A stretch of 64,000 nucleotides of DNA, from contig NZ_CP062221.1 of NCBI RefSeq assembly GCF_021590045.1, positions 434,001-498,000 on the forward strand. Reading direction: 5' to 3'. This DNA is from Cellulomonas palmilytica (GTDB lineage Bacteria > Actinomycetota > Actinomycetes > Actinomycetales > Cellulomonadaceae). Shown here one piece after another: positions 52,675 to 63,756 of the stretch (position 1 is its first letter; each line of letters starts with the position of its first letter). The translations under genes and the position numbers were made by a program. The notes beneath the pieces were generated by a model, which did not search any database, was not told the DNA's origin, and saw only the letters and a program-made list of their open reading frames with translations.

Positions 52675-53841
52675 TCAGCGCGCGGACGGCGGCGCGAGCG
52701 AGGGGAGGGCGACGATCGCGCCGGGAGCGACGCGGAGGTGGACCCGGTCGCCGGGGGACGCCATGAGGCCGGGAGCGGCGCCGGCCGTGACCTCGCCGAC
52801 GCCCGGCACGTCGACGTGCAGCGTGGGGCTCCCGCGGCGTGAGCGGACCGCGAGCACCACGCCCGCGAGCGCGTCGTCGTGGTCGGCGGTCCCGGCACGG
52901 TCGTCGTCCTGCACGACGAGCGCGCCGGGCGCGAGCGCGAGCGTCGCGTCGGCGGGCGGGTCGCCCGCCGCGTCCCGCACCGGCCGCGGGGCGTCTCCGG
53001 CGACGACGAACGCCTCGTAGCCGAGGAAGCGCGCGACCTCCTCGCTCGCGGGTGCGCGCCACAGCTCCGCGGGGGCGGCGACCTGCAGCAGCCGGCCCGC
53101 GGACATCACGGCGACGCGGTCGGCGACGGCGAACGCCTCGTCCTGGTCGTGCGTGACGAACAGCGCGGTGGTGCCGGTGGCGAGCAGCGCGGCGCGCAGG
53201 TCGAGCGCGAGGCGCTCGCGCAGGGAGCGGTCGAGCGCGGACAGGGGCTCGTCGAGCAGGAGCAGCCGCGGGGCAGGCGCGAGCGCCCGCGCGAGCGCGA
53301 CGCGCTGACGCTCCCCTCCGGACAGGGTGGCGACCGACCGCGGACCCGCACCGGGCAGCCCGACGAGCTCGAGCAGCCGCTCGACGCGCGCGGCGACCTC
53401 TGCGCGCGGCCGGCCGGCGAGCCCGTAGGCGATGTTGCCCGCGACGTCGCGGTGCGCGAACAGCTGGCCGTCCTGGAACATGAGGCCGAAGTCGCGCCGG
53501 TGCACGGGCTCGCCGGCGACGGACCGCCCGTCCCACGTGACGTCGCCGCCCGCGAGCGGCTCGAGACCTGCGACGGCGCGCAGCAGCGACGACTTGCCGC
53601 AGCCGGACGGACCGAGCAGCGCGAGCACCTCGCCGCGGGCGACGTCGAGGCGGACACCGTCGACTGCCGTCGTGCCGGGTCGGTGGCGGCGCGCGGACGG
53701 GTAGCGCACGACGACGTCGCGCACGCCGAGCCCGGTCGATGCACCGGGGCGGGCGCGGCCCGCGGCCCCCGCCGGGCGCGCGGCACTCGTCGGACCCGTG
53801 CCCGTCGGGACGTTCGTCGTCTCGGTGCTCTCGGTGGTCAC
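52675..53841 (-). CDS. thiQ: thiamine ABC transporter ATP-binding protein
   Basis: A 388-residue ABC ATPase that drives the permease encoded just upstream. Walker A GPSGCGKSSLL, Q-loop LMFQDGQLFAHRDVAGN, signature LSGGERQRVALARAL, Walker B LLLLDEPLSALD, and H-loop VTHDQDEAF are all intact. The C-terminal TOBE-like part (ALAPGALVVQDDD, GSPTLHVDVPGVGEVT) is extra compared with short ThiQ. GTG at 53841 is preferred (GGAGG at 6-nt spacing) over the adjacent GTG at 53844; it overlaps the permease stop. The substrate is assigned from the TPP riboswitch and the binding protein. Confidence 0.88.
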   Translation of the reverse strand: MTTESTETTNVPTGTGPTSAARPAGAAGRARPGASTGLGVRDVVVRYPSARRHRPGTTAVDGVRLDVARGEVLALLGPSGCGKSSLLRAVAGLEPLAGGDVTWDGRSVAGEPVHRRDFGLMFQDGQLFAHRDVAGNIAYGLAGRPRAEVAARVERLLELVGLPGAGPRSVATLSGGERQRVALARALAPAPRLLLLDEPLSALDRSLRERLALDLRAALLATGTTALFVTHDQDEAFAVADRVAVMSAGRLLQVAAPAELWRAPASEEVARFLGYEAFVVAGDAPRPVRDAAGDPPADATLALAPGALVVQDDDRAGTADHDDALAGVVLAVRSRRGSPTLHVDVPGVGEVTAGAAPGLMASPGDRVHLRVAPGAIVALPSLAPPSAR

Positions 53842-55616
53842 CACTCGCCTCCTTCTCCCGCGCGCCGCAGCCGCTCGCACACCGCGACGACGCTCGCGGT
53901 CAGCAGCGCGAGCACCACGGACGCCGCGAGCGCCGCGCCGTAGGACTCGGGCCCGGGCCGGCCGATGAGCCGGAAGATCACGACGGGCAGCGTGGGCCGG
54001 TCGGGCCGCGCGAGGAACGCCGTCGCGCCGAACTCGCCGAGCGACGCGGCGAACGCGAACCCGACGGCCAGCCCGAGCGCGCGACCGGCCAGGGCGAGGT
54101 CGACGGAGCGCAGGACGCGTCCGGGTGCCGCGCCGAGGGTCGCCGCGGCCTCGCGCAGACGCGGGTCGATGGCCCGCAGCACGGGCAGCACGGTCCGCAC
54201 GACGAGCGGCACGGCGACGACGGCCTGCGCGATCGGCACGAGCAGCGGGGAGCGGCGCAGGTCGAGGTCGAGGCCGAACGGCTGGTGCATCGCGAGCAGG
54301 AACCCGAACCCGACGGTCACGGCGGACACCCCGAGCGGCAGCATGAACAGGGCGTCCATCCCGGCCACGGCGCGGCGCGCGGCGGGCCGGCGGGGGCGGC
54401 GGGACACGACGAGCGCGACGAGCCCGCCCACGAGCAGCGCGAGCAGCGTCGCGTCGACCGCGGTGCGCAGCGACGTGAGCGCGGCCTCCCAGACGGTGAC
54501 GGTGACGCCGCCGCGCACGCTCGACAGCGCGACGTAGTGGTCGAGCCCCCACCCGTCGCCGACGCGCAGCGAGCGGACGACGAGGTTGACGAGCGGGAGC
54601 GCGAGGAGCGCCACGACGAGCGCGGTGACGGCGGCCGCGGCGCGTTCGAGCCCGAGGCCGTCGTCTCGTGGCTCCCCGGCGCGACGGCGCAGGCGCAGGG
54701 GCCGCACGGCCGTCTCGGGGCTCGCGAGCGGGAGCGCGCGCTCGCGACGCCCGCGCGCGCGGTTGGCGACGAGCAGGGCGGCCACGACGACGACGAGCTG
54801 CACGACCGACAGCACGGCGGCGGCGCGCAGGTCGAGGAACTGCGTGGTCTGCACCCAGATCTCGGTCTCGACGGTCCCGTAACGCAGGCCGCCGAGCACG
54901 AGGACCGTGCCGAACGCGGTGGCGCAGAACAGGAACACGAGCGACGCGGCGGACGCGATCGCGGGTGTCAGCGCGGGCAGCGTGACGGTCCGGAACGCGC
55001 GCCAGGGCGTCGCGCCGAGTGCGCGGGCGGCCTGCTCGGCGCGCGGGTCGAGGCGCTCCCACATGCCGCCGACGCCGCGCACGACGATCGCGTAGTTGAA
55101 GAACACGAGGGCCGCGACGACGGCGGCGAACGTCCCGTCGAGGTGCAGGAACCCGAGCGGCCCGTTCTCGACGAGCAGGGACCGGAACGCGACGCCGACG
55201 ACGACGGTCGGCAGCACGAACGGCACGGTCACCAGGGCGCGCACCGCGGCGCGCCCCGCGAACCGGCGCCGGTAGAGCACGTAGGCGCCTGGCACGCCGA
55301 GGAGCACGCTCACCGTCGTCGCGACCCCGGCCTGCGCGAGCGTCTGCCCGATGATCCGCCACGTGCGGGGCCGCGCGAACACGTCCGCGAACCCGGACAG
55401 GTCCAGCCGCCCGTCGGAGACGAAGCCCCGCCCGACCATCACGGCGACCGGGTAGGCGAAGAACACGACGAGGAACGCGAGCGGCACGAGCGCCGCGACC
55501 GTCCACGCCGCCCCACGACCGAGGCCCGCGCCCCGGACGCGCGCACCGGTCGACGGGCGTGCGGGCCCGTCCGGTGCGTCGCGCACGGGGCGCGGGAGTG
55601 CGGTCGTCGCGGTCAT
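53838..55616 (-). CDS. thiP: thiamine ABC transporter permease
   Basis: A 592-residue double-length permease (about 12 helices), a fusion of two membrane domains as in ThiP. Each half has an EAA loop contacting the ATPase: AEQAARALGATPWRAFRTVT in the first and LREAAATLGAAPGRVLRSVD in the second. The N-terminal half ends in the basic segment RARGRRERALP. ATG at 55616 lies one base after the thiB stop; its own stop overlaps thiQ (GTGA). Confidence 0.9.
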   Translation of the reverse strand: MTATTALPRPVRDAPDGPARPSTGARVRGAGLGRGAAWTVAALVPLAFLVVFFAYPVAVMVGRGFVSDGRLDLSGFADVFARPRTWRIIGQTLAQAGVATTVSVLLGVPGAYVLYRRRFAGRAAVRALVTVPFVLPTVVVGVAFRSLLVENGPLGFLHLDGTFAAVVAALVFFNYAIVVRGVGGMWERLDPRAEQAARALGATPWRAFRTVTLPALTPAIASAASLVFLFCATAFGTVLVLGGLRYGTVETEIWVQTTQFLDLRAAAVLSVVQLVVVVAALLVANRARGRRERALPLASPETAVRPLRLRRRAGEPRDDGLGLERAAAAVTALVVALLALPLVNLVVRSLRVGDGWGLDHYVALSSVRGGVTVTVWEAALTSLRTAVDATLLALLVGGLVALVVSRRPRRPAARRAVAGMDALFMLPLGVSAVTVGFGFLLAMHQPFGLDLDLRRSPLLVPIAQAVVAVPLVVRTVLPVLRAIDPRLREAAATLGAAPGRVLRSVDLALAGRALGLAVGFAFAASLGEFGATAFLARPDRPTLPVVIFRLIGRPGPESYGAALAASVVLALLTASVVAVCERLRRAGEGGEW

Positions 55617-55617
55617 G

Positions 55618-56772
55618 TCAGCCGATCACGGTCTGCGACCACGTCGAGAGCCAGACGTCACGCTTGGAGGCGATCTCGGCCGGTGCGACCTCGAACGGGT
55701 GCTCGGCGAGCGGCGCCCACAGCGTCCACCCGGCGGGCAGCACGACCTCGGACGCGACGGGGTACATGTACATCGAGCCGGGGATGTCGACCTGCACCTC
55801 GTAGGACAGCAGGTAGTCGAGCAGCGCCCGCGCGCCCGCGGGGTTCCGGGCGCCCGTGAGGACGCCCGCGTACTCGACCTGGCGGAAGCACGTGTCGAGC
55901 AGCGCGGACGTCGTCGGCTCGTCGGCGCCGTCCGGCACGGTCGCGGGCGGCGACGACGCGTAGGACAGCACGATGGGGCGCGGCCCGTTGCCGCCACCAC
56001 CGGAGAAGTCGGTGAAGTACGCGTCGGACCAGCCGTCGGCGACCTTGAGGCCGTTGTCGACGAGCTCGTCCCAGTACTGCGGCCACGCGTCGCCCTTGGC
56101 GCCGACCGTGGCGAGCAGGAACGCGAACCCGGGCGAGGACGTCACGGCGTTGGGCACGACGAGCAGGTCCTTGTACGCGGGCTTCGTGAGGTCGTCGAGC
56201 GTCGTCGGCGGCTCCACGTCGTGCTTCGCGAACCACGCGTCGTCCACGTTGAGGCACACGTCGCCGAAGTCCACCGCGGTGAGCGCACCGTCGGTGTCGC
56301 CCTCGACGGCGAAGCCGAGCGCGTCGGCGGCCGCGTCGCCCTGCGACCGGTACGGCTCGACGACCCCCTCGGTGAGGGCACGCGACGCGAACGCGTTGTC
56401 GATGCCGAACACCAGGTCGCCGAGCGGCGCGTCCTTGGTGAGCACGAGCTGGTTCACCAGGGCCCCGGCGTCGCCGGGCTGGACGACCTCGACCTCGACG
56501 CCGGTCTCCTCGGTGAACTTCTCGAGCAGGCCGTCGGACAGCGCGAACGAGTCGTGCGTGACGAGCGTGACGGTGCCGCCCAGCTCGGGCGACGCGGTGG
56601 CCCCGGCGGTCCCGGAGCTCCCGGGAGGCGTCGGGGCGCCCGCCTGCGGGTCGTCGTCCGTGAGCGAGCAGCCCGCGAGGACGAGGGCGGGGACCAGCAG
56701 ACCGCCGAGCAGCGCGGCCGTGCGGCGGGTGGGTCGGGATGCGCGCGTGCGGCGCACCGTCGGACCGGTCAT
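55618..56772 (-). CDS. thiB: thiamine-binding lipoprotein of ABC transporter
   Basis: A 384-residue extracellular binding lipoprotein. Lipobox LVLAGC with Cys35 after a basic signal (VRRTRASRPTRRT). Mature protein is of the ThiB type: GGTVTLVTHDSFALSDGLLE, EKFTEETGVEVEVV, APLGDLVFGIDNAFASRALT, and DFGDVCLNVDDAWF, VLSYASSPPATV near the C-terminal lobe. First gene of the thiB-thiP-thiQ operon, behind a TPP riboswitch. ATG at 56772 with AGGAGG upstream. Confidence 0.92.
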   Translation of the reverse strand: MTGPTVRRTRASRPTRRTAALLGGLLVPALVLAGCSLTDDDPQAGAPTPPGSSGTAGATASPELGGTVTLVTHDSFALSDGLLEKFTEETGVEVEVVQPGDAGALVNQLVLTKDAPLGDLVFGIDNAFASRALTEGVVEPYRSQGDAAADALGFAVEGDTDGALTAVDFGDVCLNVDDAWFAKHDVEPPTTLDDLTKPAYKDLLVVPNAVTSSPGFAFLLATVGAKGDAWPQYWDELVDNGLKVADGWSDAYFTDFSGGGGNGPRPIVLSYASSPPATVPDGADEPTTSALLDTCFRQVEYAGVLTGARNPAGARALLDYLLSYEVQVDIPGSMYMYPVASEVVLPAGWTLWAPLAEHPFEVAPAEIASKRDVWLSTWSQTVIG

Positions 56773-56864
56773 GGGGTGGTGCCTCCTGGCGTCGTCTGCG
56801 AGGAGGGGTCCACCGGCCCGTCGCACCGAGCACCCCGGCACGACGGGGCGGAGGTGAGAAGTCC

Positions 56865-57021: not shown

Positions 57022-59046
57022 TCACTCCCGGAAGGCGGGACGCCCCTCGCGGCGGCGTGCTACGACGACCGCGCCGGCACCGCCGACGCCCAGGCCGAGC
57101 GCCAGCAGCGCGAGCAGCGCCACCTCGACACCGGTCACGGCGAGCGGCGCACGGTCGACCGGCTCGGCCTGGTCGACGGGCGCGGCGGGCGCGGCGGGGT
57201 CGGCGGGATCGACGGGGTCGACGGGGTCGGCGGGGTCGGCGGGGTCGGCGGGCGCCTCGACGTGGAGCGTGTGCCGGTCGGTGGCCGACGCCGCCCTGCC
57301 GTCGAGGCCGGGCGTCGAGGACGACACGGTCGCGGTGACGACGACGTCGCCGGTCAGCCACGAGGCAGCGGACACCCGCAGGTCGAGCCGGGCGACCTCG
57401 CCGGGGGCCAGCGGGGCGTCGAGCGCGCACACGACCGTGGACGTGCCGGAGCACTCCCAGTCCGCCGTCGACGCGGCGGCGACGTCCGCGACGTCCACTG
57501 CGGACGTCAGCCCCGCGGGCAGCGTGGCCGTCACGACGACGTCGCGCGCGTCCGACGGGCCGCGGTTCGCGACCTGCACGCGGTACACGCCCGTGCCGCC
57601 GGCGACCGGCGCGGTCAGGACGGCCGTCGCGAGGCTCAGCTCGGCGTGCGCGGTGACGGTCGTCGTGACCTCGTCGTCGTCCTGGTCGCCCTGCCAGCGC
57701 GACCCGACGACCGCCGTGGTGACGACGTCGCCCGTGACGCCGGACGCGACGGCCACGTCGAACGTGAACGACGAGGCCGCGCTCGCACCGACGCCGAGGA
57801 CGCCGTCGAGCGCGCACACGACGCTCGTCGTGCCCGAGCACGTCCAGTCGTCGTCCGACGAGACGCCACCGGCGTAGCTCAGGCCCGCGGGCAGGTCGGC
57901 GGTCACGACGACGCCGTGCGCGGCCGACGGGCCGTCGTCGCGGACCGAGACGCCGAACGTCCCGGTCCCGCCCGCGACGAGCGCGTCGACGACCGTCGTG
58001 GTGATGCCGAGCGACTCGGCGTGCGTGACGGCCGTGCTCGTCGCGTCCTCGTCGTCGTGCGCGTCGTCGCCCTGGCCGGTGGCCGGCGTGACCTCCGCGG
58101 TCACGACGAGCGGGCCGTCCGCCGGGAGCAGCGTCGCGTCGACGAGGCCCGTGACGTCGACGCCCACCGACGCACCGACCGCGAGGTCCCACGGGCGCTC
58201 GCAGGTCAGCGTCCGGCCGGACACCGCGCAGACCACGCCCGTCTCCAGCAGCGTCGTCACGGACAGGCCCTCGGGCAGCGTCACGGTGACGACGACCGGG
58301 TCGGCCGCCGAACCGTGCGAGACCGACGGGCCGTGGTTGGTCACCACGGCCGACCACGTCGCCGAGGCGCCCGCGGCCGCGGAGCTCCCCGTGCCGCGGT
58401 ACTCGCCCCGGCCGCCGTCGTACGAGTCACCGCCCGCGGGGTCCGTCACGTGCGTGACCGCCACGACCGTGGTGTGCGCGGCGGCCGACCCGCTCGCGGA
58501 CCCGGCGGCCGAGGTCGGTGTCGCGTGGTAGCGCAGCACCACGGAGGCTCCCGCGTCGAGCCGTACGCCGGCGGGCAGCACGTCCGACCAGGTGAGCGTG
58601 CTCGTGCCCGTCGGGTCGTCCAGCGCGACCGCGCCCGCGGCGCCGACCTGGACGGTCGAGCTCCCGTCGACGTACTGCCATCCCGTCGGGAGGGTCGCGG
58701 TCAGCTCGACCGACGCGGCCGGCCCGCTGCCCGCGTTGGTCAGGACCACCGCGTACGCGACCGCCTGGCCGACGACCACGGGGTCCGGGGTGGTCTGCGA
58801 CACGGTGGCGTCCACGCGCGGCAGCTGCGGCGTGACGCTCACGTTCGCCGGGGCGCTGGGCCCGTACGAGCGTCCGCCCGTGGGCAGCGACGTCCAGGAC
58901 GTCGCGCGCGCGGTGCTCGTCAGGGTCCCGAGCGCGAACGTGTCGGCGTCGTCCAGCATCACGTCGTAGCCGACCTCGTCGTGGTCGCCCGAGGCGACGG
59001 ACGCGACCGTCCGGCTCAGCCGGCGCGTCGAGGAGTCCCACGTGGA
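57022..59046 (-). CDS. sortase-type wall-anchored DUF11-repeat protein, N-terminus missing
   Basis: About 675 codons of a surface protein. Four or five beta-sandwich repeats of DUF11/CARDB type each show a pattern like DPVVVGQAVAYAVVLTNAGSG or DDGPSAAHGVVVTADLPAG, and three repeats carry C-x(6-8)-C pairs (DWTCSGTTSVVCALD). The end is a wall-sorting tail: Pro/Asp/Ala spacer, LAVTG, hydrophobic helix and RRREGR, as for class E sortases. No signal peptide exists: the first protein-like residues (STWDSSTRRL) are at 59046, and beyond them the frame becomes arginine-rich shadow of the next gene. The gene is probably a 5'-truncated remnant. An ATG at 58959 could start a non-secreted product. Confidence 0.7.
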   Translation of the reverse strand, partial: STWDSSTRRLSRTVASVASGDHDEVGYDVMLDDADTFALGTLTSTARATSWTSLPTGGRSYGPSAPANVSVTPQLPRVDATVSQTTPDPVVVGQAVAYAVVLTNAGSGPAASVELTATLPTGWQYVDGSSTVQVGAAGAVALDDPTGTSTLTWSDVLPAGVRLDAGASVVLRYHATPTSAAGSASGSAAAHTTVVAVTHVTDPAGGDSYDGGRGEYRGTGSSAAAGASATWSAVVTNHGPSVSHGSAADPVVVTVTLPEGLSVTTLLETGVVCAVSGRTLTCERPWDLAVGASVGVDVTGLVDATLLPADGPLVVTAEVTPATGQGDDAHDDEDATSTAVTHAESLGITTTVVDALVAGGTGTFGVSVRDDGPSAAHGVVVTADLPAGLSYAGGVSSDDDWTCSGTTSVVCALDGVLGVGASAASSFTFDVAVASGVTGDVVTTAVVGSRWQGDQDDDEVTTTVTAHAELSLATAVLTAPVAGGTGVYRVQVANRGPSDARDVVVTATLPAGLTSAVDVADVAAASTADWECSGTSTVVCALDAPLAPGEVARLDLRVSAASWLTGDVVVTATVSSSTPGLDGRAASATDRHTLHVEAPADPADPADPVDPVDPADPAAPAAPVDQAEPVDRAPLAVTGVEVALLALLALGLGVGGAGAVVVARRREGRPAFRE

Positions 59047-59071
59047 GCGCGCACGCCCGGCCCGCGGGCGG

Positions 59072-59077
59072 TAGCGT
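59072..59077 (+). promoter_or_regulatory. -10 hexamer TAGCGT of the DUF4235 gene
   Basis: TAGCGT lies 8 nt before the ATG at 59086. Confidence 0.45.
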
Positions 59078-59085
59078 CGGCGTCC

Positions 59086-59355
59086 ATGGCAGCCAAGCCC
59101 TCGACACCGATGCTCGCGAAGATCGTCGGACTCGCCACGGCGGCCGCAGCCGCGTGGCTGGCGAACCAGGCGATCAACCAGACCTGGAAGGCCGCGCGCG
59201 GCCACAAGCCGCCCAAGGCGGAGGACCCGGGCGACTCGCAGCTCGCCGAGATCCTCGTCGCCGCGGCACTCTCGGGTGCCGCCGTGGCGGTCGCCCGCGC
59301 GCTCGCGACGCGCGGTACCGCGCGGTTCGCCGTGAAGTCCGACCTGACGGACTGA
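59086..59355 (+). CDS. DUF4235 family membrane protein
   Basis: An 89-residue protein with two hydrophobic helices (about 10-28 and 52-72) joined by a basic, Lys/Pro-rich loop (WKAARGHKPPKAEDP). The sequence KPSTPMLAKIVGLATAAAAA, then AEILVAAALSGAAVAVARAL fits actinobacterial DUF4235. Function unknown. ATG at 59086. The gene lies head-to-head with the truncated wall protein, suggesting a rearrangement joined the two here. Confidence 0.82.
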   Translation: MAAKPSTPMLAKIVGLATAAAAAWLANQAINQTWKAARGHKPPKAEDPGDSQLAEILVAAALSGAAVAVARALATRGTARFAVKSDLTD

Positions 59356-59371: not shown

Positions 59372-60859
59372 TCAGGGCCGCAGGTCCGGGACCGTCGTGA
59401 TCCCGAAGACGTCGCGCATCGCGCGCCGCGCCGCGAACCAGCCGCCGAGCCCGTGCACGCCCGGCCCCGGCGGGGTCGACGACGAGCACAGGTAGACCCC
59501 GTCGAGCCCGACCGCGTACGGGTCGGGCCGCGGCGTGGGCCGGGCGACCATCTGCCACATCGTGATCGCGCCGGCCGCGATGTCGCCGCCCACGTAGTTC
59601 GCGTTGTGCTCGGCCATCCGCGCGGCGGGCACGCACCGGCTCGCGACGACGACGTCGCGGAACCCCGGCGCGTACCGCTCGACGTGCGCGGTGACCGCCT
59701 CGGTGACGTCCACGTCGGAGCCCGCGGGCACGTGCGCGTACGTCCACAGCGGCCGCAGCCCGCCGACGACGCGCCCGGGGTCGACCACCGCGGGGTCGCT
59801 CAGCAGCGTCATCGGGCGCTCGGGGTGCTGACCGCGCGCGACCTGCGCCTCGGCCGCCGCCATCTCGGCACGCGTCCCGCCCAGGTGCACGGTCCCCGCG
59901 AGCGCGACCTCCGGGTCCGTCCACGGCACCGGGCCGGAGAGCACGAAGTCGACCTTGCTCGCGCCGTCGCCGTACCGGAACGCGGACAGGGCTCGGCGCG
60001 CACGGTCGGGCAGCCGGTCGCCGAGCACGTCGACGACCGTGCGCGGGCTCGTGTCGAACAGGTAGGCGTGCGCGCCCGGCAGGTCCGCGGCGGTCCGCAC
60101 GGGGTGGTCGGTGACGACCTGGCCACCGTGCGCCTCGAGATCGGCGCGCAGCGCGTCGGTGATCGCACGCGACCCGCCGCGCGGGATGGACCACCCCTCG
60201 CCCGCGTGCGCGAGCGAGGCCAGCAGCAGCGCGGTGCCGGCGGCGGCGAGCGACGGCAGCGGCGTGCTCGCGTGGGCCGCCACGCCGGTGAGCAGCGCGG
60301 GCGCGACGTCGCCGGAGAACCGGCGGTCCCACGCGCGCGTGCCCTGCTCGAGCACCGCGAGCCCGAACGCCGCCGCGGTCGGCACGCCGCCCGGCAGCAG
60401 CCCGGGCGGCAGGTGGCGCTTGTCGCCCAGCGCGATGCGCACCACGTGCGGCCACTGCTCCGACAGCCGTCCGACGAGCGTCCGCCACGCGGGCCCGTCC
60501 GCGCCGAGCGCGTCGACCGTGCGGTCCAGGTCCCGGTACGCGATCCCCGAGCGCCCGCCCGGCAGCGGCTGCGCGTAGGACACCTCGGGCGTCAGGAGCT
60601 CGACGCCCCGCGCCGCGAGGTCGAAGCCGCGGAAGAACGGCGACGCCCATGCCATGGCCTGCACGGCCGAGCAGATGTCGTGCACCACGCCGTCGGCGAG
60701 CCCCAGGTCGAGCGTGCGCGCGCCGCCGCCGCTCGTGCTCTGGGCCTCCAGGACGGTGACCTGCAGCCCGGCGCGCGCGCACGTGACCGCCGCGGCCAGC
60801 CCGTTCGGGCCAGAGCCCACGACGACGACCTCGGTGTGCCCCTCGCCGCGCCCGCGCAC
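59372..60859 (-). CDS. phytoene-dehydrogenase-like FAD-dependent oxidoreductase
   Basis: A 495-residue flavoprotein of the CrtI-like/NAD(P)-FAD oxidoreductase family. Dinucleotide-binding fold VVVVGSGPNGLAAAVTCARAGLQVTVLE at the N-terminus (GSGPNG), GEGWSIPRGGSRAITDAL (substrate-domain signature), and the C-terminal FAD motif GVYLCSSSTPPGPGVHGLGGWFAAR. Actinobacterial members of this type are not tied to carotenoid genes; none are present here. The GTG at 60859 follows GAGGGG; the longer frame reaching 60913 would need a TTG. Confidence 0.88.
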   Translation of the reverse strand: MRGRGEGHTEVVVVGSGPNGLAAAVTCARAGLQVTVLEAQSTSGGGARTLDLGLADGVVHDICSAVQAMAWASPFFRGFDLAARGVELLTPEVSYAQPLPGGRSGIAYRDLDRTVDALGADGPAWRTLVGRLSEQWPHVVRIALGDKRHLPPGLLPGGVPTAAAFGLAVLEQGTRAWDRRFSGDVAPALLTGVAAHASTPLPSLAAAGTALLLASLAHAGEGWSIPRGGSRAITDALRADLEAHGGQVVTDHPVRTAADLPGAHAYLFDTSPRTVVDVLGDRLPDRARRALSAFRYGDGASKVDFVLSGPVPWTDPEVALAGTVHLGGTRAEMAAAEAQVARGQHPERPMTLLSDPAVVDPGRVVGGLRPLWTYAHVPAGSDVDVTEAVTAHVERYAPGFRDVVVASRCVPAARMAEHNANYVGGDIAAGAITMWQMVARPTPRPDPYAVGLDGVYLCSSSTPPGPGVHGLGGWFAARRAMRDVFGITTVPDLRP

Positions 60860-60986
60860 CTGCGACCCCTCGCCTCGCTCGTCCCACCCGCTCGTCCGGA
60901 CCCCGCCATCCAACCACCCCCACCGGGACGACGAGCGGCGGGCAGACCTCCCCGCAGCGCACGGGCGGGGTCGTGTGAGCAGGTCG

Positions 60987-61076: not shown

Positions 61077-61514
61077 GTGAGCAGGTCTCAGGACGTACGA
61101 GCACGACGACGCGCGCGTGCGGTCACGTGGGGCGTGCTCGGCGTCATCGCCCTGGGTGCGCTGGTCGAGGCCGAGGTGTGGCCCGTGAGCGCGTTCCGCC
61201 TGTTCAGCACCGTGCGCACCGCGGAGGGCGCGTCGACCGTGCTCGTCGCGACCACCGTCGACGGCGTGCGCGTGCCGGTGCCGATGCCGGGCTCCGAGCC
61301 GCTCGTCGCGACCTCGCACCAGCTCGTCGACCTGCGCGACCTGCCCACCGGCGTGCGCCGGGAGAAGGCCGTCGCGTGGCTGCGGCTCGCGGGTCTGGAC
61401 CCGGCCGGGTACGCGTCGGTCGCGGTCGAGCGCACGCGCTGGACGATGGACCCGACGACGCGCGAGCGCCGCCCGCACGGCACGACGACGGTGCTCGCGG
61501 AGGTGACGCTGTGA
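61077..61514 (+). CDS. single-pass membrane protein encoded with an HTTM protein
   Basis: A 145-residue protein: basic N-terminus (RARRRARAVT), one membrane helix (WGVLGVIALGALVEAEVWP) and an extracytoplasmic domain (FRLFSTVRTAEGASTVLVAT, LDPAGYASVAVERTRW). The stop overlaps the start of the HTTM gene (GTGA), so the two proteins are made together and may form a complex. GTG at 61077 behind GGGGGACG. Family not recognised. Confidence 0.75.
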   Translation: MSRSQDVRARRRARAVTWGVLGVIALGALVEAEVWPVSAFRLFSTVRTAEGASTVLVATTVDGVRVPVPMPGSEPLVATSHQLVDLRDLPTGVRREKAVAWLRLAGLDPAGYASVAVERTRWTMDPTTRERRPHGTTTVLAEVTL

Positions 61515-62500
61515 CGGCCGACGCGACGACGCCGACGAACCCGACGCACCCGACGAGCCCGGCCGGCCCGACGGGCCCCGCCCCGGCGACCTCCGGGCAG
61601 CGCCCTCGGGGCGGGCGACTGCGCGCGGTCGTCGGGACCCTGGACCGCCGGCTCACCGCACCGGGGCGCGGCTACCGCCTGCGCGAGGTGCACACGCTCG
61701 TCGCGCTCGTCATCGGCCTGCGCCTGGTGACGCGCGACTGGTCCGCGATCGCCGACCGGCCCGCCGCGCTGACCGACGGCCTGACGGTCGTCTCGTGGCT
61801 GCCGGACGCGCTGCCCGCGGGGCTGCCGGTCGCGCTCGCCGTGCTGGGCGTCGGCGGGGTGGGGCTCGTGCTCGCGCGGCGCCGCGCGCACGCGGGGTTC
61901 GTCGTCGCGTGGGCCTGCTACGCGGTGCTGTGCGCGCTGTGGGGGTCGTCGGGCAAGGTCCTGCACAACGACGTCCTGACGGTGTGGGTGGGTGTCCCGC
62001 TGCTGTTCGCGAGCCTGCCGAGGCCGGGCCACGACCACCGGCGGGCGGTCGCGTGGGGCTGGCCGCCGCGCGCGGCGCTGGCCGCGCTCGCGCTCGTCTA
62101 CTGGCTCACGGGTGTGCAGAAGCTGCGGCACTCGGGCGTCGGGTGGGCGCTGTCGGACAACATGACGTGGGTGCTGCGGCAGGGCGTCTCGCCGCACGCG
62201 GACGGGCTCGCGCAGTGGGTGGCCGACCACGTGGTGGTCGCGAGCGCGCTCGCGACGGGTGCGCTGCTGCTCGAGCTGACCGCGCCGCTGTGGCTCGCGT
62301 GGCGCCGGACGCGCGCGCTGTTCGTGCTCGCGGTCGCCGTGATGCACGGCAGCATCTGGCTGTTCCTGGGCATCGACTACTCGGCGTGGGTGCTCACGGC
62401 CGCGGCGGTCGCGCTGCCGATGAGCCTCGCGCCGACGCGCCGGTTGCGCGACGCGCCGGGACCCCTGGGACGCCTGGTATCGGCTCTCGCACGGGCGTAG
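61511..62500 (+). CDS. HTTM-domain membrane protein
   Basis: A 329-residue protein with about eight hydrophobic helices resembling the HTTM (vitamin-K-dependent carboxylase-like) fold: LREVHTLVALVIGLRLVTRDW, SSGKVLHNDVLTVWVGVPLLF, LALVYWLTGVQKLRHSGVGW (the conserved Tyr/Lys-Leu region) and AVMHGSIWLFLGIDYSAWVL. Bacterial HTTM proteins have no settled function. The N-terminus is a Thr/Pro-rich cytoplasmic tail. The preceding overlapping gene is its probable partner. Confidence 0.8.
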   Translation: MTADATTPTNPTHPTSPAGPTGPAPATSGQRPRGGRLRAVVGTLDRRLTAPGRGYRLREVHTLVALVIGLRLVTRDWSAIADRPAALTDGLTVVSWLPDALPAGLPVALAVLGVGGVGLVLARRRAHAGFVVAWACYAVLCALWGSSGKVLHNDVLTVWVGVPLLFASLPRPGHDHRRAVAWGWPPRAALAALALVYWLTGVQKLRHSGVGWALSDNMTWVLRQGVSPHADGLAQWVADHVVVASALATGALLLELTAPLWLAWRRTRALFVLAVAVMHGSIWLFLGIDYSAWVLTAAAVALPMSLAPTRRLRDAPGPLGRLVSALARA

Positions 62501-62655
62501 AGACCGTTTCCGGCCGACTTAATCGTTACATTCGGACAAATCTCCGCGCGTCGGACGACAAGATGCCACCCAAGCGGGTCGTCGGACCTCGGCGTACCCG
62601 CGGCCGGCTCTCCCCACGAACCCCGGCCACCCCCGACGCAACGCTGCGAGGCGCC

Positions 62656-63342
62656 ATGTCCGTGCTGTCCGCCTGCGACCTGGTCGCACGCACCGGATCA
62701 CCGGCCGAGCTGCGCGGTGCCCATCTCGAGGTCGCCGACGGCGAGGCCGTCGCGCTGCTCGGGCCCGCCCGCTCCGGCACCACCACGATGCTCCAGGCGC
62801 TCGCCGGGCTCGTGCACCCCGTGCGCGGTCGCGTGCGGCTCGACGGCCGGGACCTCGCGTCGCTGCGCCCGCACGAGCTCGCCGCCACGCGCCTGAGCGC
62901 GCTCGGCCTCGTCTTCCCCGACGACGACCTGCTCCCCGAGCTCACGCTCGTGCAGAACGTCGAGCTCCCGCTGCTGCGCATGGGCGTGCCCGGCACGGAG
63001 GCCCGGCACCGCGCCGCGGCGCTGCTCGGCCGCCTGTTCGTCGGCGCCGGTGCGGACCTGCTGCCCGAGGCCGTGTCGTTCGGTCAGCGCCAGCGCGCCG
63101 CCGTGGCGCGCGCGCTCGTGCACCGGCCGCGCGTGGTGCTCGCCGAGGACCCGACCGCCGGCCTCGACTCGTGGCGTGCGCTCGCGCTGTTCGGGCTGCT
63201 CGTCGCCGTCGCGCGCGACACCGGCACCGCGGTGGTCGTCGCCACCCAGGACCCGGAGCTCGCGCAGCTCGCCGACCGCGTGGTCGAGCTGCGCGACGGC
63301 CTGCTCGTCGAGAGCCCGACCGCGCGCACCTACACGCGCTGA
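62656..63342 (+). CDS. degenerate ABC ATP-binding protein (probable pseudo-ATPase)
   Basis: A 228-residue full-length ABC domain of the LolD/MacB type, by overall layout (LLPELTLVQNVELPLLRMGV, RADRVVEL-like ADRVVELRDG). Every catalytic motif is altered: Walker A GPARSGTT (36-43) lacks the Lys (Thr42), the Q-loop has Pro88 for Gln, the signature is VSFGQ (140-144) instead of LSGGQ, Walker B reads AEDP with Asp165 where the catalytic Glu should be, and the H-loop has Gln198 for His. The frame is intact, so it is likely to be kept for a non-hydrolytic role. No permease is adjacent. An in-frame ATG at 62562 is an alternative start; GAGGCG precedes 62656. Confidence 0.85.
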   Translation: MSVLSACDLVARTGSPAELRGAHLEVADGEAVALLGPARSGTTTMLQALAGLVHPVRGRVRLDGRDLASLRPHELAATRLSALGLVFPDDDLLPELTLVQNVELPLLRMGVPGTEARHRAAALLGRLFVGAGADLLPEAVSFGQRQRAAVARALVHRPRVVLAEDPTAGLDSWRALALFGLLVAVARDTGTAVVVATQDPELAQLADRVVELRDGLLVESPTARTYTR

Positions 63343-63369: not shown

Positions 63370-63756
63370 TCAGGCGTCGTCGCGCGTGCGCGCCTCGCGC
63401 AGGTCCCGCGTGAGCTCGTCCGTCACCAGCAGGTCGTTGCGCACCTTGCCCGTGCGGTAGCCCGCGCGCCCCACCATGTGCGCCGCCACGGGCGCGGTGA
63501 GCAGCCCGAACACCGCGACGAGCACGAGCGCCCACACCGCACCGCCCGAGCGCAGCCGCAGGCCCAGCCCGACGAGCACGAGGACCAGCCCGAGCACCTG
63601 CGGCTTGGTCCCCGCGTGCATGCGTGAGAGCAGGTCAGGGAACCGCAGCGCCCCGACCCCCGCAGCGAGCACCAGGAACGAGCCGCCGAGCAGCGCCACC
63701 ACGGACACCACGTCCGCGAGCGTGTCCCAGCCCGAGCCGCCCTCGAGACCGTTCAC
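63370..63756 (-). CDS. mrpG: Mrp Na+/H+ antiporter subunit G
   Basis: A 128-residue subunit with three helices: ADVVSVVALLGGSFLVLAAGVGALRFPDLLSRMHAGTKPQ (in two blocks; RFPDLLSRMHAGTKP is the family hallmark) followed by LGLVLVLVGLGLRL and VFGLLTAPVAAHMVGRAGY. Part of the Mrp/Mnh complex that exchanges Na+ or K+ for protons. GTG at 63756 overlaps the mrpF stop (GTGA); last gene of the operon, whose upstream genes lie beyond the right edge. Confidence 0.93.
   Translation of the reverse strand: MNGLEGGSGWDTLADVVSVVALLGGSFLVLAAGVGALRFPDLLSRMHAGTKPQVLGLVLVLVGLGLRLRSGGAVWALVLVAVFGLLTAPVAAHMVGRAGYRTGKVRNDLLVTDELTRDLREARTRDDA

Follow-up and report, generated by a model that had tools for sequence, protein, structure and literature searches.

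A selectively kept ABC domain with a replaced ATP site in Cellulomonas palmilytica, possibly a non-hydrolysing partner in a mixed pair of motor domains

The gene described here lies in a 64,000 nt stretch of the Cellulomonas palmilytica genome (contig NZ_CP062221.1, positions 434,001 to 498,000; hereafter the window) and encodes a real, conserved ABC domain that, judged from its sequence, is probably non-catalytic. We regard this protein, the pseudo-ATPase, as an intact and selectively kept relative of the MacB/LolD type. The reading we put first, with a probability of somewhat more than one in three (about 0.37), is that it forms a mixed motor pair with a working ABC domain encoded elsewhere and is the member that does not hydrolyse ATP. 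The initial annotation had proposed that a mostly non-catalytic ABC domain is retained by selection at this position, and both the motifs of the orthologues and the dN/dS values bear this out.

The frame had been described as complete, and it is indeed a single ORF of 228 codons and a stop (Table 1). The gene measures 687 bases in four of the five genomes that carry it and 681 in the fifth, G019. The protein matches ABC_tran (PF00005) with 73.4 bits and passes the Pfam cut-off of 25. An AlphaFold2 model built from a 72-row alignment reached a mean pLDDT of 93.0 and a pTM of 0.90, and the best solved matches of this predicted model in Foldseek were MacB (5lj9, TM 0.88), YbbA (9ge6, TM 0.91) and LolD; because of these scores and matches, a complete MacB/LolD-type ABC fold is predicted. 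Among the NCBIfam models LolD, MacB and DevA came out on top, all of the 25 best models listed being far under their cut-offs. As the curated cut-offs were missed for LolD (151.7 bits, cut-off 307.75), MacB (139, cut-off 966) and FtsE (128.1, cut-off 264.85), the protein is none of these three proper. A midpoint-rooted protein tree of 81 sequences groups the pseudo-ATPases, by topology alone, into a single long-branched clade next to working domains of actinobacteria, with the ATP-binding subunits of MacB, LolD and YbbA as nearest relatives. The pseudo-ATPase is thus like these FtsX-class (type VII) proteins in fold, with TM values of 0.88-0.91 to solved ABC domains, in best family models and in tree position, but differs from them in its replaced ATP-site residues, in having no adjoining permease and in its low family scores.

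Table 1. Features of the pseudo-ATPase gene and its surroundings, in window coordinates
Feature	Position	Strand	Remarks
FAD-dependent oxidoreductase gene	59372..60913	-	Assigned by Pfam; flank of the conserved site; 5/5 carriers
145 aa protein gene	61077..61514	+	Conserved upstream neighbour, 5/5 carriers
HTTM-like protein gene	61511..62500	+	PF05090 25.3 bits, under the cut-off of 27.7; conserved upstream neighbour
AT-rich block TTAATCGTTACATTCGGACAAATC, possible promoter region	62519..62542	+	Upstream; partly alike in 4/5 carriers
CTGCGAGGCGCC, likely ribosome-binding stretch	62644..62655	+	Immediately 5' of the ATG; identical in 4/5 carriers; putative function
Pseudo-ATPase ABC domain gene, 228 aa	62656..63342	+	Open frame, ABC_tran match, fold model, purifying selection
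A-loop position 13, Thr for Phe/Tyr	62692..62694	+	Position from alignment; Phe/Tyr in 181/191 listed relatives
Walker A GPARSGTTT	62761..62787	+	Ser38 to Ala, Gly39 to Arg, Lys42 to Thr; Gly36, Gly41, Thr44 kept
Q-loop, Gln88 to Pro	62917..62919	+	Gln in 191/191 listed relatives
Post-Q-loop segment 88-107, LLPELTL..NVELPL kept	62917..62976	+	0.66 agreement with the majority of 113 listed relatives
Signature VSFGQ	63073..63087	+	Ser141, Gly143, Gln144 kept; Gly142 to Phe
Walker B strand, Asp164-Glu165 changed to Glu-Asp (AEDPT)	63133..63150	+	
D-loop	63157..63168	+	Leu170, Asp171 kept; Gly168 to Ala
Switch His198 to Gln	63247..63249	+	His in 191/191 listed relatives and 5/11 orthologous sequences
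MnhG subunit gene, Mrp antiporter	63370..63756	-	PF03334 81.3 bits; convergent downstream neighbour; 5/5 carriers

For comparison with working relatives the best 120 matches of each of two protein searches were taken, giving 198 distinct proteins; seven are orthologues (P0001-P0007, 60-100% identity) and 191 are not. A smaller set of 113 relatives consists of the non-orthologues among the matches listed in the first search. In the 191 listed relatives Ser38, Gly39, Lys42, Gln88, Asp164 and His198 are each invariant, Gly142 is found in 190, Glu165 in 189 and Phe or Tyr at the A-loop position in 181. We place the A-loop at position 13 on the basis of the alignment. Every one of these residues is replaced in the window protein. 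As had been noted initially, the Walker A Lys, Q-loop Gln, catalytic Glu and switch His are all changed, which leaves none of the four members of the catalytic ABC ATPase set in place, and to these we can add the A-loop aromatic, as well as Ser38 and Gly39 of Walker A. The Ser-Gly core of the signature had been called replaced as well; here only Gly142 is changed, while Ser141, Gly143 and Gln144 are retained and half of that core thus survives, so the statement that all catalytic motifs are replaced is true of most of them but not of the signature, which is mostly intact. Val140 of the signature is ordinary, being Val in 35 of the 113 listed relatives. The segment following the Q-loop faces the permease in ABC domains, and Leu92, Asn101, Val102 and Pro105 within it are kept in all seven database orthologues.

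The replacements are mostly a family trait. Among 221 genomes of the family, 11 had matches with E values no higher than 1e-45, and five of these hold an orthologue (65-100% identity), namely the window's own genome (G000), G076, G020, G031 and G019; the remaining matches have at most 50% identity. The seven database sequences and four other genome copies make up 11 orthologous sequences, P0003 being a near-duplicate of the G020 copy. Lys42 is Thr in all 11, Gln88 is Pro in nine, Gly in one and Asn in one, and Gly142 is Val (6), Phe (3) or Ala (2) and in no case Gly. The A-loop position holds Ala (5), Thr (3) or Pro (3) and never an aromatic residue. Gly39 has become Arg in nine sequences and Ser in two (G019 and P0007), Glu165 is Asp in nine and is retained in P0007 and G019, and Asp164 is Glu in four. 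At position 198 we find His in five sequences, Gln in three, and Ala, Gly and Arg in one each. Close homologues with normal motifs had been named as the sign of simple decay; such motifs are absent in the orthologues, Lys42 and Gln88 missing throughout. The description of all motifs as replaced does not, however, extend to the whole set, with the switch His retained in 5/11 and the Walker B Glu in 2/11.

Further, it is the ATP site that the loss has hit. Among the 40 positions conserved to at least 95% in the 113 listed relatives, 31 are kept and five lost in all seven database orthologues and four vary among them, and by our own sorting of the 40 into motif and other positions all nine of the lost or variable ones fall in ATP motifs (9/19 motif against 0/21 other; Fisher p 3.4e-4). 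Within the same seven sequences conservation is highest in the signature helix (0.94). From the distribution of residues we infer that the A-loop aromatic, Lys, Gln and signature Gly were the earliest to be lost, that the Walker B Glu followed and that the switch His was replaced on several occasions, as would be expected once the catalytic constraint is gone.

Selection was measured with the pairwise codon model GY94 with F3x4, run from our own script on the ten pairs among the five carriers. Omega was 0.053 for G000-G076 and 0.052 for G020-G031, the two closest pairs, and 0.054-0.141 for six further pairs; in G076-G020 and G020-G019 the synonymous sites are saturated and omega is meaningless. 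An omega of 1 was rejected in all ten pairs (2 delta lnL 78.3-127.8), hence the neutral dN/dS that was to indicate decay is not what is seen. As controls, the same measure gave 0.011-0.037 for a working ABC domain (6 pairs, G019 left out), 0.023-0.064 for MnhG (9 usable of 10 pairs), 0.035-0.076 for MrpA (10 pairs), 0.040-0.090 for the FAD oxidoreductase (10 pairs), 0.034-0.132 for the HTTM-like protein (9/10 pairs) and 0.039-0.195 for the 145 aa protein (8/10 pairs). The constraint on the pseudo-ATPase gene is strong, and looser than that on the working ABC domain. In the G000-G076 pair, dS is 0.47 for the pseudo-ATPase gene against 0.72-0.99 for its neighbours and the working control domain.

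Neutral evolution was simulated in 3000 runs per pair for three pairs. For G000-G076, 10 amino-acid changes were observed in the first 225 residues against a neutral mean of 35.1 and a minimum of 24, and for G020-G031 (24 observed, neutral mean 57.9) and G000-G020 (49 observed, neutral mean 84.5) the observed number was likewise under the minimum of all 3000 runs. The lack of stops had been put forward as an argument against decay; this turned out to be weak evidence, as the frame stayed stop-free in 65% (G000-G076), 41% (G020-G031) and 33% (G000-G020) of the neutral runs, and at 77% GC an open frame alone says little. No frameshift and no broken frame occurs in the five carrier genes. Simple decay to a pseudogene was rejected because of the omega values near 0.05, the rejection of omega 1 in every pair, the simulations and the five intact genes. 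A slow decay that has brought no stops so far would fit the variable switch His, Walker B and signature Gly positions among the orthologues, the share of stop-free neutral runs, and the dN of 0.21-0.25 in pairs with G019, about 2.5 to 3 times that of MrpA (0.08-0.09; the 145 aa protein has 0.26-0.31). Such decay is nevertheless very improbable, given the low omega of the close pairs, the amino-acid changes below every neutral run in all three pairs and the absence of frameshifts in five genomes.

ABC domains form head-to-tail pairs in which the A-loop, Walker motifs, Q-loop and H-loop of one domain build an ATP site together with the signature of its partner, as set out in the extracts of PMC7756269 that also cover the role of the A-loop in the site. 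In the pseudo-ATPase residues of the own (cis) site are lost, with the A-loop aromatic, Lys42 and Gln88 gone in 11/11 orthologous sequences and Glu165 in 9/11, and of the residues acting in trans Ser141, Gly143, Gln144 and Asp171 are retained in 11/11 and Gly142 is lost in 11/11. Such a combination, the cis set lost and the trans set mostly kept, would be typical of a dead half in a mixed pair. As the A-loop aromatic, Lys42, Gln88 and, in most sequences, the catalytic Glu are missing, we infer that the protein uses no ATP at its own site; because Ser141 and Gly143, which act on the partner's ATP, the D-loop Asp171 and the permease-facing segment are kept, it may well still pair with another ABC domain. 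The kept signature and D-loop would then be lent to a working domain from elsewhere in the genome. One composite ATP site of such a mixed pair would be dead, the second, to which the partner would contribute the Walker motifs and the pseudo-ATPase the signature, could still hold ATP, and the transporter might consequently fire on one ATP or run slowly. It should be noted that the half meant to act in trans is itself damaged, since the first signature Gly is lost throughout. Nor is the dead half here fused to or encoded with a transmembrane part and a partner domain, the gene order being the same in all five carriers. The rarity of the gene (5/221 genomes) and a hint of its loss in G021 and G008, from weakly supported trees, also speak against the mixed pair, as does the comparison of FtsX loci described below, which yielded neither an orphan permease nor a system specific to carriers.

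All five carriers share one gene order, in which the FAD oxidoreductase is followed by the 145 aa protein, the HTTM-like protein, the pseudo-ATPase and convergent MnhG, and the 145 aa protein has no matches in Pfam or NCBIfam. In trees of the neighbouring genes the non-carriers G021 and G008 fall near G019, on weakly supported branches (56 to 81), which hints at loss of the pseudo-ATPase gene in these two genomes, or at transfer. The initial remark that no permease is adjacent holds for the immediate neighbours, as neither an ABC permease nor a second ABC domain adjoins the gene among its neighbours in the window, but an HTTM-like protein lies directly upstream and a thiamine-type ABC importer is found at about 53242-56841 (-). 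This importer comprises a binding protein (TIGR01254, 224.4 bits, cut-off 93.4), a permease with two BPD_transp_1 stretches and an ABC domain. Thiamine-type importers are of another ABC class than the FtsX type, for which reason we consider it an unlikely partner.

In the window's own genome 19 matches to the FtsX domain fall into 12 loci. The idea that an orphan FtsX permease is the dedicated partner was rejected, as all 12 loci have an ABC domain nearby and none is left awaiting the pseudo-ATPase. We then compared the FtsX loci of G000, the four other carriers and the non-carriers G021 and G008 (71 stretches), matching the ABC domains by reciprocal best hits. Four loci are common to all five carriers, and since the same four also occur in G021 and G008, a carrier-only FtsX partner was discarded; a partner of the FtsX class, if there is one, would not be carrier-specific, and the four shared loci are the candidates. 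In G000 (C1) their ABC domains lie near 912535, 1516745 and 1517782, 1885541 and 1886537, and 3300897. The shared locus near 1886537 is putatively FtsEX-like by size and conservation, and one extra ABC domain beside it has no reciprocal best hit in G008. G019 has a second FtsX locus with two ABC domains (L150), 66-77% identical to its shared one and with no reciprocal best hits in the six other genomes compared. Two other leads were dropped. The sequence ATTCGGACAAATC, the core of the AT-rich block, had seemed recurrent before other ABC genes in the translations of related loci, but the regulon idea was abandoned because it occurs a single time in the own genome by exact search, and a single time in the window when up to two mismatches are allowed. 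In viral contigs 48 pattern matches were obtained, none of them a relative, and a viral copy was thus not found.

Apart from the mixed pair, a regulator that blocks or titrates fits almost as well, although we still hold it to be rather unlikely: the protein would join an ABC domain, or dock on an FtsX-type permease, and stop the transporter, its own level setting the activity. The solitary gene with no partner beside it, the replaced ATP site, the kept permease-facing segment and the possible loss in some lineages, which is conceivable for a regulator, all agree with this, and the missing first signature Gly would harm the partner's site too. A named target is missing for the blocker just as for the mixed pair, and the invariance of Ser141 and Gly143 in all 11 orthologous sequences counts against it, as a pure blocker would have no need of them.

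A role as scaffold for a protein other than an ABC transporter, for example the HTTM-like neighbour, we judge improbable. In its favour, all five carriers have the HTTM-like and 145 aa genes upstream on the same strand, and the Foldseek matches listed include PhnK bound to C-P lyase (7z15-7z19), an ABC domain on a permease-less complex. PhnK itself is an active ATPase, and C-P lyase genes are absent among the neighbours examined. Against the scaffold, the identity of PhnK to the pseudo-ATPase is only about 27%. Moreover the HTTM-like gene occurs in 21 of 81 genomes of the genus, in all five carriers and in 16 others without the ABC gene, which excludes it as an obligatory partner, and 155 bases separate the two genes in the window. 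The most unusual alternative, and a still less probable one, is a sensor of nucleotide or phosphate with a rebuilt pocket, in which Arg39 of the Walker A loop would replace the lost Lys, by analogy with the WNK kinases, where the catalytic Lys has moved. Residue 39 (62770-62772), which is Arg in 9/11 orthologous sequences and Gly in 191/191 listed relatives, could rebuild a phosphate contact, and Gly36, Gly41 and Thr44 of Walker A are kept. Against the sensor, G019 and P0007 have Ser39 and yet lack the Lys too, and the A-loop aromatic and Q-loop Gln are gone throughout.

The degenerate halves of Pdr5, TAP, MRP1, TM287/288 and mycobacterial MsRv1273c/72c come fused to, or are encoded alongside, the transmembrane part of the same transporter. 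From these Pdr5- and MRP1-type halves the pseudo-ATPase differs in standing alone and in being of the FtsX class; it shares with them, as far as the extracts of PMC7756269, PMC10305233 and PMC12038006 describe these degenerate halves of asymmetric transporters, a dead or weak own site. A precedent is the NBS1 of Pdr5, where likewise Walker A has lost its Lys, Walker B its Glu and the H-switch its His (PMC7756269). MRP1 has an Asp for Glu in NBD1 and a changed signature, LSVGQ, in NBD2 (PMC10305233), the latter resembling the signature of the pseudo-ATPase with its first Gly lost. By the head-to-tail rule this LSVGQ lines the poorly hydrolysing site, which would point to tolerance of such a change for ATP binding, not for hydrolysis. 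Among the titles and beginnings of abstracts listed in a literature search, no stand-alone bacterial pseudo-ATPase of this kind was recognised.

In the systems named above the dead ABC ATP sites sit in domains physically or genetically joined to the transporter, which makes their role hard to separate; a free dead domain under selection in soil-type bacteria could be deleted, over-expressed or purified on its own. We further speculate, as a possible though doubtful extension of the mixed pair, that a free-standing pseudo-ATPase makes a symmetric FtsX-class transporter asymmetric on demand, swapping into the motor pair and resetting its ATP cost or switching it off. If it does swap into a working pair, it would offer a natural handle on the number of ATP per transporter and on switch-off.

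As for the site itself, the interval between the HTTM-like gene and MnhG (L138-L142; 62500-63370 in the window) holds an ABC-F-like frame in G033 and G047 and other frames in G058, G039 and G001, and because of these different inserted genes in related genomes it looks insertion-prone. The ABC domains near MnhG in G033, G047 and G011 were set aside as unrelated (31-32% identity to the working query domain, frames of 528, 528 and 610 aa); by their look we take them to be ABC-F-like. The HTTM-like gene directly adjoins MnhG in G021 and G028, with no ABC gene between, and in 11 of the 25 non-carrier loci among 30 MnhG loci fetched it is the oxidoreductase that adjoins MnhG. Beside the oxidoreductase the window has a DUF11-repeat protein (57022-59205, -, 727 aa, four stretches); the DUF11-like frames of G020, G031 and G019 measure at least 1985 aa, hence the window copy may be shortened.
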